This document shows positions 5,848-17,783 of a stretch of DNA of 20,772 bases, piece after piece; within the stretch, counting starts at the first letter, position 1, and every line of letters starts with the position of its first letter. The position numbers and the translations under genes were made by a program. Under the pieces are notes generated by a model. That model searched no databases and was not told the origin of the DNA. It saw nothing but the letters and a program-made list of their open reading frames with translations. Source of the DNA: a virus; IMG/VR virus record IMGVR_UViG_3300014838_000097, positions 1 to 20,772 of that record; one strand, written 5' to 3'.

Positions 5848-5999
5848 TTAAGCTCCAATACTTTATTATCTTTTATTACCAACTCACGGTGTACGTCATA
5901 GTTTTTATTCTTCTGACACCGACAAGGCATTTTAATTGCTTCGTTAATAACGCCATGCACTATTACAAATTTATGTCCGTGACAGTATTCACAATTCAT
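5844..5999 (-). CDS. Zinc-knuckle microprotein (51 aa)
   Basis: The start is ATG at 5999, which overlaps the upstream stop as ATGA; a more distal start nine codons earlier would reach into the DUF2829 gene. C3-x2-C6 (CEYC) and C26-x-C28 (CRC) give a compact CxxC...CxC zinc site with HGHKFVIVHG between. The tail is a hydrophobic/charged strand (RELVIKDNKVLELK). It lies directly behind the DUF2829-like gene. Confidence 0.65.
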   Translation of the reverse strand: MNCEYCHGHKFVIVHGVINEAIKMPCRCQKNKNYDVHRELVIKDNKVLELK

Positions 6000-6409
6000 T
6001 TTGTTTTTTCCTCTATTATTTCCCAATCAGAAGAGCTAAAACATTCAAATGTAGGCGTGAAATCATATTCACAAATGCGGCGAAGAAATATTTCTTTTCT
6101 GTTAGGTGTAGATTCAATAAAACAATCCGGTGGCCAATCAAGCAATTTCGCTTTATACCCTTCGAAAAGTTTTTGACACATATCGGGAAACGTTAATAGT
6201 CCGTCAGCATCTACACAATCCAAAATTATCCAGCCATTTGATGTAATAATGCTGGAATCATAAACATACGTAACACATTCTTGAATGTAACACTTAATTC
6301 TATTTTCATGATCCTGTAGACCCATTTTTAAATATATTGATTGTGGCCAACCTTTACGACGCACTTTAAAGTTTGATAACAAACTGGAATACGCTTCTTT
6401 AAACTCCAT
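5996..6409 (-). CDS. Protein with two tandem DUF2829/Tad2-like domains
   Basis: The N-terminal part (MEFKEAYSSLLSNFKVRRKGWP ... IYL) has the DUF2829 opening (F-x-E-A ... L ... V-x-R-x-x-W), and the C-terminus ends with the family's closing SSDWEII. The second half repeats the first: residues 1-28 and 72-99 align without gaps (F3/F74, W21/W92, P22/P93), and W60/W129 mark the two domain ends. It is therefore a degenerate tandem of the ~65-residue fold. The family includes Tad2, known to bind and sequester Thoeris-type cyclic-ADPR signals as an oligomer. A fused pair might form the dimer within one chain. Sequestration here is inference. The ATG overlaps the preceding TAA (TAATG). Confidence 0.65.
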   Translation of the reverse strand: MEFKEAYSSLLSNFKVRRKGWPQSIYLKMGLQDHENRIKCYIQECVTYVYDSSIITSNGWIILDCVDADGLLTFPDMCQKLFEGYKAKLLDWPPDCFIESTPNRKEIFLRRICEYDFTPTFECFSSSDWEIIEEKTK

Positions 6410-6783
6410 TAGTTATTCCTCAGTAATTGCAGTGTCCTGGATTTTAATTTTGTGTGCTTCAATCCTTCTTTCTTCTCTAGCCCAAATATATATTCTTCAA
6501 AGAATATGGCTACATCAACAGGTGACGCGACCGGCGGTAAACTTTTAACATTTTCATGATTCACATGTGCAGGAACCTGATATTTCTGCAACATTTCCAA
6601 AGCATCCTCTTTACACAAATCCCATCGGTTTTGCAACATGGAAATAGTAAATCCTTTCCGCTTTTCCATAAATTCTCGGTAGTCGGTTATTGTATTATCT
6701 TTTATAGAATTTACAATCATAGGGATTTCAGCGCCTGTTGGGATATGGCGTGCTAGATGTATAACAAGTTTCGGAGTTTTCAT
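6409..6783 (-). CDS. Hypothetical protein, first gene after the structured RNA region
   Basis: I place the start at ATG 6783, which has AAGGA 6 nt upstream; an earlier in-frame ATG at 6882 would read through the structured element. The 124-residue protein starts MKTPKLVIHLARHIPTGAEIP. It contains a likely helical domain (FTISMLQNRWDLCKEDALEMLQKYQVPAHVN) with the W-x3-x4-A-x3-L pattern of small winged-helix/excisionase-like modules, followed by a hydrophobic helix (SPVDVAIFFEEYIFGLEKK) and a basic C-terminus. A regulatory or DNA-binding role is possible but not shown. It begins 17 nt after the end of the folded RNA element and would be the gene controlled by it. Confidence 0.6.
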   Translation of the reverse strand: MKTPKLVIHLARHIPTGAEIPMIVNSIKDNTITDYREFMEKRKGFTISMLQNRWDLCKEDALEMLQKYQVPAHVNHENVKSLPPVASPVDVAIFFEEYIFGLEKKEGLKHTKLKSRTLQLLRNN

Positions 6784-6800
6784 ATCATCCTTAATATAAT

Positions 6801-6991
6801 TGGCAATCGGAAGGAATTGCACCTTCTGTGTAATAAGATAGGCGTGGACTGGACGCCTTGTTTTACAGCTACAGGTAGGCATACTACTGTGTGCCGTTTT
6901 CTGCCTCTATTCTGCCTAACACATTACTTACCAGCCCAGAATAGCTCTCTTATTACTGATTACGTTTCACTGTTCAACGCCGCGATTGCCA
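6801..6991 (-). ncRNA. Structured, tRNA-like RNA element (191 nt) in the 295-nt gap
   Basis: Read on the minus strand, the ends pair over 9 bp (TGGCAATCG at 6991-6983 with CGATTGCCA at 6809-6801). Right inside the 3' arm, and abutting it, is a 5-bp stem with a 7-nt loop (GAAGG-TGCAATT-CCTTC, 6826-6810). This loop keeps T54, C56, A57, A58 and Y60 of a tRNA T-loop. After the 5' arm comes a D-arm-like hairpin (6980-6962). A second perfect nested helix (9 bp, 6956-6948 with 6838-6830) encloses three hairpins at 6944-6907, 6890-6871 and 6857-6841. This is the ground plan of a tRNA or tmRNA tRNA-like domain with a long branched insert. No CCA, anticodon or tmRNA tag is evident. It could be a trans-acting RNA or a leader of the downstream operon. 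Confidence 0.45.
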
Positions 6992-7077
6992 TAAACTGGT
7001 GACCCACATACTTTATTGTTCTCTCACTTTTTCGAGATAGAATCAAAATATACAAATATATGGGCCTTAAACCGACA

Positions 7078-17540: not shown

Positions 17541-17783
17541 ATGAAGTTTGAACAAGCATTAGATTTATTGGAACAGGGTAAGTACATAGTTCGAGAAGGT
17601 TGGCACAGAACGGATGGTTTTATTTGCTTGATGCCAGGAATGCCTTTGCCTTGGAAGATCATGCCAGCACCTAATGCGCACGCGGGTGTACATACTCTTT
17701 CGCGTGATGACATAAAGGCGACTGACTGGAAGGAAGTTACCTATTGCGATCTGAATAAAGCTGATGAAGTAGACGCAGCGTAG
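17541..17783 (+). CDS. DUF2829/Tad2-like protein
   Basis: All landmarks of the single-domain family are present: MKFEQALDLLEQGKYIVREGW at the start, a strand (GFICLMPGMPLPWKIMP), then SRDDIKATDWKEV, corresponding to the usual S-x-x-D-x-x-A-x-D-W-x-x-V end. At 80 residues it is near the size of known members. The family includes Tad2, a phage protein that captures the cyclic-ADPR signal of Thoeris and, in some members, CBASS nucleotides. A role in counter-defence is plausible. It sits among late-region genes, in contrast to the tandem version on the early strand. The last ten residues are a nonconserved acidic tail. Confidence 0.75.
   Translation: MKFEQALDLLEQGKYIVREGWHRTDGFICLMPGMPLPWKIMPAPNAHAGVHTLSRDDIKATDWKEVTYCDLNKADEVDAA

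Follow-up and report, generated by a model that had tools for sequence, protein, structure and literature searches.

An element of 191 nt on the minus strand of the viral DNA analysed here (the window, 20,772 nt, IMG/VR record IMGVR_UViG_3300014838_000097) is, on comparative sequence grounds, a real and previously uncatalogued folded RNA gene of a phage. Its structure includes two pseudoknots, its tRNA-like outer frame is conserved while the enclosed cargo is replaced, and its distribution is phage-associated. We lean towards reading it as the gene for a stable, structured phage RNA that would be expressed, be matured like a tRNA and act in trans, built from a tRNA-like frame and an exchangeable effector cargo.

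Structure of the element

The two nested 9-bp helices reported in the preliminary description, here called P1 and P2, are exact at the positions given in Table 1. The minimum-energy fold of the minus strand, in whose sense the element runs from 6991 to 6801, contains both of them (z = -2.67; equally good folds arise in 2 of 200 shuffles). The hairpins likened to a D-arm and a T-arm (H1 and H2) are also borne out, as are three hairpins inside the insert (P3, P5 and P6), although the insert additionally holds two pseudoknots that the preliminary description had not seen. As it had read, there is no encoded 3' CCA, no evident tag and no evident anticodon arm in the sequence or the alignment.

Table 1. 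Features of the element and its downstream gene in the window; paired counts refer to the alignment of 16 homologs
Feature	Position	Strand	Sequence and evidence
Whole RNA, tRNA-like frame and cargo	6801-6991	-	191 nt; covarying homologs and fold
P1 5' strand (acceptor-like)	6983-6991	-	UGGCAAUCG; P1 paired 115/117
P1 3' strand	6801-6809	-	CGAUUGCCA; 16-homolog alignment
H1, D-arm-like hairpin	6962-6980	-	GCGUU-GAACAGUGA-AACGU; 55/57 paired; last U is also first base of UAAUCA
Linker UAAUCA	6957-6962	-	In all 16 aligned members; GAAUCG variant in L010
P2 5' strand	6948-6956	-	GUAAUAAGA; pairs with 6830-6838; 135/136 paired
P2 3' strand	6830-6838	-	UCUUAUUAC; 16-homolog alignment
P3	6907-6944	-	CUAUUCUG (6944-6937) / CAGAAUAG (6914-6907); 126/128 paired
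Pseudoknot 1 5' strand	6931-6936	-	GGCUGG; pairs with hairpin loop 6852-6847, CCAGUC; 93/97 paired
Pseudoknot 2 5' strand	6919-6923	-	UGUGU; partner 6892-6888, ACACA; 74/80 paired
Pseudoknot 2 3' strand	6888-6892	-	ACACA; 16-homolog alignment and tree-aware test
P5	6877-6906	-	AGGCA (6906-6902) / UGCCU (6881-6877); 79/80 paired
Signature AAAACAA-GGCGU-CCAGUCC-ACGCC, P6 hairpin	6841-6864	-	80/80 paired, invariant; loop is pseudoknot 1 3' strand
H2, T-arm-like hairpin	6810-6826	-	GAAGG-UGCAAUU-CCUUC; 86/87 paired
Cargo in place of anticodon and variable arms	6827-6962	-	136 nt; unrelated cargo fills the frame that L206 and L220 keep at this locus
Downstream gene	6409-6783	-	124 aa, matching no family; 17 nt separate the end of the RNA from the start codon of this gene, as first described

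The stretch AGCUA of the P3 5' strand (6941-6946) is also complementary to a conserved UAGCU (6867-6871) that precedes AAAACAA. This pairing, which is partly broken in L016 and L026, and P3 are mutually exclusive, and a switch or a triple is possible. A second structured element lies directly upstream on the minus strand (7001-7066), where GGCCCAUAUA can pair with UAUGUGGGUC over 10 bp including wobbles; a similar element closed by GGCC...GGCCACC stands at the matching place in the relatives L206, L221, L223 and L231.

Homologs and covariation

Listeria phage B025 carries a 156-nt match with 73.6% identity to the window element. A pattern derived from this pair, together with a second pattern from the 3' hairpin, retrieved 24 viral loci, one Pseudomonas genome contig and one Clostridiaceae MAG contig, and homologs occur in phages of Listeria, Pseudomonas, Clostridiaceae and others. 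Of 299 Pseudomonas genomes (the genus to which L028 belongs), one has the core pattern, and that one is the source genome itself; the plasmids searched gave no credible match to the element.

Sixteen members were aligned by hand, and every row was checked letter for letter against its source. The alignment was made by eye around the proposed structure, and the paired counts in Table 1 consequently lean towards that structure. All proposed helices (P1, H1, P2, P3, P5, P6 and H2) are kept in the 16 homologs, with many compensatory changes in P1, P2, P5 and both pseudoknots. Double-sided changes are found at 7 of the 8 pairs of P1, 8 of the 9 pairs of P2, and all five pairs of P5 and of pseudoknot 2. 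The pairs of pseudoknot 2 read UGUGU/ACACA in the window, UACGA/UCGUA in B025, UGCCA/UGGCA in L016 and AUCCA/UGGAU in L013; in pseudoknot 1, U-A is replaced by G-C and C-G among homologs.

Under a null model that preserves the tree and shuffles substitutions among columns, 18 structural pairs are significant, while 6 pairs outside the structure also exceed the threshold. The 18 fall in P1 (6), P2 (3), P3 (1), P5 (1), H2 (2), pseudoknot 1 (1) and pseudoknot 2 (4 of its 5 pairs), and so include both of the long helices for which the preliminary description had proposed a search for covariation in relatives. Energy folding alone is not decisive, because the B025 element folds with z = -0.37 and because both pseudoknots, found by sequence comparison, were missed by it. 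Chance is excluded since the homologs keep their pairing with compensatory changes.

The same covariation contradicts the view that the element is a decayed, functionless tRNA or tmRNA gene. Such decay would account for the absence of a CCA and an anticodon, and for the collapsed frames seen in Enterococcus phages phiFL2A and phiFL3A. However, it is highly improbable given the strong compensatory evolution of helices and pseudoknots and a core that is invariant across phyla.

Independent evolution of frame and cargo

Relatives of the window locus were obtained with the terminase and the downstream gene as baits. At this locus, which is flanked by the Sak4/SSB genes on one side and the 124-aa gene on the other, L206 and L220 retain the frame, with 79-90% identity to the window in its 5' part and 81-92% in its 3' part, while their cargo resembles that of the window only at the level of shuffled sequences. 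In L206, P1 reads UGGCAAUAG/CUAUUGCCA, an acceptor change that is compensated. The D-loop core ACAGUGA is the same in the window, L206 and L220, though the H1 stem changes, and the T-loop UGCAAUU is identical in all three; the T-arm of L220 has a single mismatched stem pair. The downstream gene also persists without the RNA in L212, L228 and several other relatives.

Enterobacterial phages combine a near-constant frame (GUGGUGAAUGCGCAGGCUGAUGCG ... GCCGGAGAUCAGCACCGGCCACCAC) with at least 44 distinct inserts in 87 copies, 17 of them bearing the core described below, although this frame was chosen by pattern and its constancy is partly built in. That selection bias is absent from the comparison of L206 and L220 and from that of phage HK629 with prophage loci of the CUS-3 type. 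In the latter (L104, L140), the 200-nt flanks are 98-99% and 95-98% identical, and the inserts, of 65 and 163 nt, have no evident similarity (no shuffle baseline was made for that pair). In these comparisons the outer frame of acceptor helix, D-arm and T-arm is the conserved unit, and frame and cargo evolve separately, which supports the earlier proposal, made from the window, of a tRNA-like frame whose anticodon arm gives way to a large insert.

Relationship to known RNAs

ARAGORN and Rfam, two of the resources named for checking in the preliminary description, find nothing at the element. ARAGORN calls no tRNA or tmRNA gene anywhere in the window, nor does it call one at the element in homologs. 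No Rfam family matches the window element at gathering thresholds, which agrees with the suggestion of a new phage RNA, and the window stretch yields two chance-level hits only at E up to 10 (ST7-OT3_3 and Tymo_tRNA-like).

Acceptor helix, D-arm and T-arm follow one another in tRNA order, all covarying or structurally kept. There is no cloverleaf with a 7-nt anticodon loop, 136 nt taking the place of the anticodon arm, and the element is not a tRNA. The window T-loop keeps U54, C56, A57 and A58 with G at 55, as had been noted. Firmicute members have the T-loops UUCGAAU (L004 and others) or UGCAAAU, and the enterobacterial T-loop is AGAUCAGCA. The Firmicute member L004 has a canonical T-arm, GCAGGGUUCGAAUCCCUGC, and the D-arm GGUGGCGGAAAGGUGUAGACGC; we take the D-arm of such members to resemble that of tRNA-Leu. 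Recognition by tRNA enzymes is uncertain because of G55, the enterobacterial AGAUCAGCA loop, the lack of an ARAGORN tRNA call and the lack of an encoded CCA.

The earlier comparison with a tmRNA domain holds as a likeness: in tmRNA (RF00023, RF04321) a tRNA-like domain also closes on a long P2-like helix, with pseudoknots inside. In contrast to tmRNA, the element is 191 nt long, has a presumably tRNA-Leu-like D-arm instead of the tmRNA D-loop and has no evident tag. Membership is very unlikely on account of this D-arm, the absence of a match at the element to Rfam covariance models or the ARAGORN profile, and the absence of a tag reading frame evident on inspection of the conserved cargo in the alignment.

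YrlA, the bacterial Y RNA of the Wolin laboratory, is reportedly a non-coding RNA with a tRNA-mimicking module that also occurs in phages, and the element resembles it in being phage-borne and non-coding with a tRNA-like module. Membership is nevertheless very unlikely, since an Rfam search of the window stretch that admitted hits up to E = 10 did not bring up YrlA. T4 species 1 RNA (rnaC) is likewise a stable phage RNA, located in a tRNA cluster and bearing a canonical T-arm (CCGGGUUCGAAUCCCGG), but comparison by eye found neither the AAAACGAGGCGU core nor similar sequence, and kinship with the frame was rejected. The UPEC sRNA PapR and the Pas sRNAs were considered as possible known names; neither text links them to the element. 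Proteo-phage-1 RNA (RF03044), a structured phage RNA, precedes the tRNA-framed RNA by about 120-150 nt in two homologs (L013, 5030-5109; L028, 1674-1753), but is a separate element of about 80 nt. In B025, an mcrA RNA (RF03010) lies downstream of the element.

The closest analogue in layout, as an analogy, is the engineered tRNA scaffold of Ponchon and Dardel. It is man-made for RNA production, whereas the phage element is natural and its cargo evolves. The scaffold keeps the acceptor stem, D-arm and T-arm, and a foreign structured RNA replaces the anticodon arm (PMC3753655).

A wider class built on the core

The window RNA fits a class plan, UAAUCA-P2-GAG-P3-pk1 ... pk2 ... AAAAC(G/A)AGGCGU-pk1'-ACGCCUA-P2', where pk denotes a pseudoknot strand. 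At least 120 viral contigs contain the core hairpin AAAACNAGGCGU[5-8]ACGCCUA, and most core-bearing loci have the UAAUCA linker. The plan followed by most is P1 - H1 - UAAUCA - P2 - GAG - P3 - pk1 - variable domain - AAAACGAGGCGU[pk1']ACGCCUA - P2' - H2 - P1'. The variable domain may be the double pseudoknot of the window, the CUS-3 type, a recurrent CUUCGUUCGGUGAGACCGCGUAACG... domain or a tRNA-containing domain; ARAGORN places a tRNA inside or directly upstream of 16 of 111 distinct elements. The double-pseudoknot cargo of the window class recurs in phages of very different bacteria, both Firmicute and proteobacterial.

The recurrent CUUCGUUCGGUGAGACCGCGUAACG ... GAUACGGUGGAUGGAAU domain is itself highly conserved and common to phages of Gram-positive and Gram-negative bacteria (L051, L071, L073, L076, L079, L101, L106, L115, L128, L129 and L138). 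Another variant of the core has no D-arm and T-arm frame and is closed directly by P2 (GGGGUGAGCUUACCGGUAAUUG...; L086, L096, L097, L098, L100, L125 and L139). Eight loci have a permuted order, with the hairpin ahead of UAAUCA (L043, L067, L072, L075, L078, L090, L118 and L124). In these, the AAAACGAGGCGU..ACGCCUA hairpin precedes GGUAAUCAG, and in several of them an intact or odd tRNA immediately precedes the core.

Unpaired bases that are strictly conserved surround the pseudoknotted core, and the core can be permuted or have tRNAs inside it or directly upstream, as ribozyme cores can. The element could on this basis be a ribozyme or self-processing mobile RNA, whose catalytic core (UAAUCA-P2-GAG-P3-pk1 ... 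AAAACGAGGCGU-pk1'-ACGCCUA-P2') inserts into tRNA-like genes. We consider this quite unlikely: a protein-binding core would fit the conserved bases and the permutation too, other frames without the core hold different inserts, no Rfam ribozyme, riboswitch or intron covariance model matches, and nothing directly supports catalysis.

Genomic setting

Where a neighbour of a window-class copy could be identified, it is in most cases a late-gene regulator immediately upstream of the RNA. In several neighbourhoods this upstream gene is phrog_36 (five) or encodes a Q-like protein (one), and an HNH endonuclease, small terminase or holin gene follows. The element lies between Q and holin in lambdoid phages and, in HK620, between pR' and the tQ terminator. 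In the corresponding late-operon slot, two related phages of the P22-like group, L and Sf6, hold tRNA genes (PMC8022706). Of 5,426 complete E. coli genomes, 126 match the CUS-3 element, and in 115 the match spans 80% or more of its length.

Copies are also found in other settings, including a tail module (L010) and, in the window, an early operon. Phage ZCKP8 has a copy beside two tRNAs with neighbours on the opposite strand, and in phage Meifeng a copy precedes tRNA-Arg/Thr. In Enterococcus Schiekvirus 21C1 (L195), a phage tmRNA occupies positions 1-300 and a frame begins 2 nt later, from 303 onward; this frame, which also appears tRNA-Leu-like, carries yet another cargo. Near the element, promoter-like sites are no more frequent than expected by chance, and the sites that resemble terminators are hairpins of the RNA itself.

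The main rival to a trans-acting RNA is a cis-acting leader of the following operon, governing either antitermination, as put or EAR RNA does, or translation of the next gene. The latter corresponds to the tRNA-mimic leader that had been raised as one option. The position behind late regulators, the HK620 copy and the 17 nt that separate the window RNA from a start codon all suit a leader. Nevertheless, it is unlikely: cargo is swapped while the following genes remain, relatives retain the downstream gene without the RNA, and the downstream genes themselves vary, with copies in tail and early modules, at tRNA and tmRNA sites and next to opposite-strand genes.

The region downstream had been called a counter-defence operon; the label has behind it one Tad2-like match (PF11195) in the second gene downstream (5996-6409, minus strand), which at 24.4 bits falls below the cut-off of 25. 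Elsewhere in the window, a Tad2-like match on the plus strand (17541-17783) reaches 36.7 bits, above that cut-off. Together with the tRNA-like frame, the hypervariable cargo and the patchy distribution among phages, the weak match nearby would suit a decoy, a tRNA mimic to whose frame a host defence nuclease, an aminoacyl-tRNA synthetase or a translation factor binds while an arms race varies the cargo. This too is improbable. A decoy for an anticodon nuclease should retain an anticodon loop, which is absent, and the window-class cargo is conserved between phages of Firmicutes and Proteobacteria, unlike the fast change of an arms race.

Proposed function and implications

A trans-acting framed RNA is favoured because helices and pseudoknots covary and because the frame is kept while the cargo is replaced, in L206 and L220, across the 44 inserts and between HK629 and CUS-3-type prophages. 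It is further favoured by the D-arm, taken to be tRNA-Leu-like, and the UUCGAAU and UGCAAAU T-loops of Firmicute members, by copies that adjoin tRNA or tmRNA genes or fill the late-operon tRNA slot, and by the same layout in the engineered scaffold. The frame, an acceptor-like helix of 7-9 bp with D-arm and T-arm, would most likely let host tRNA-processing enzymes (RNase P, tRNase Z or other 3' enzymes) cut the RNA from long phage transcripts, and most likely also shields it from decay. The exchangeable cargo, standing in place of the anticodon and variable arms, would be the effector; that of the window, a compact double-pseudoknot domain, probably binds a conserved host or phage component.

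No description of the element was found in the open-access literature, to which the search extended. It would represent a new class of non-coding RNA in phages, one with no entry in Rfam 15 or in the open literature covered, whose shell and effector evolve independently of each other. It is a plausible, if tentative, proposal that phages possess a natural tRNA scaffold for the maturation and protection of interchangeable effector RNAs, one of them the double-pseudoknot cargo, a widely shared effector in phage-host or phage-phage conflict. If true, this would give a widely used trick of RNA engineering a precedent in nature and would indicate RNA effectors in the well-studied E. coli phages CUS-3, HK620 and HK629. 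It would also suggest one possible reading for stable phage RNAs of unknown function.
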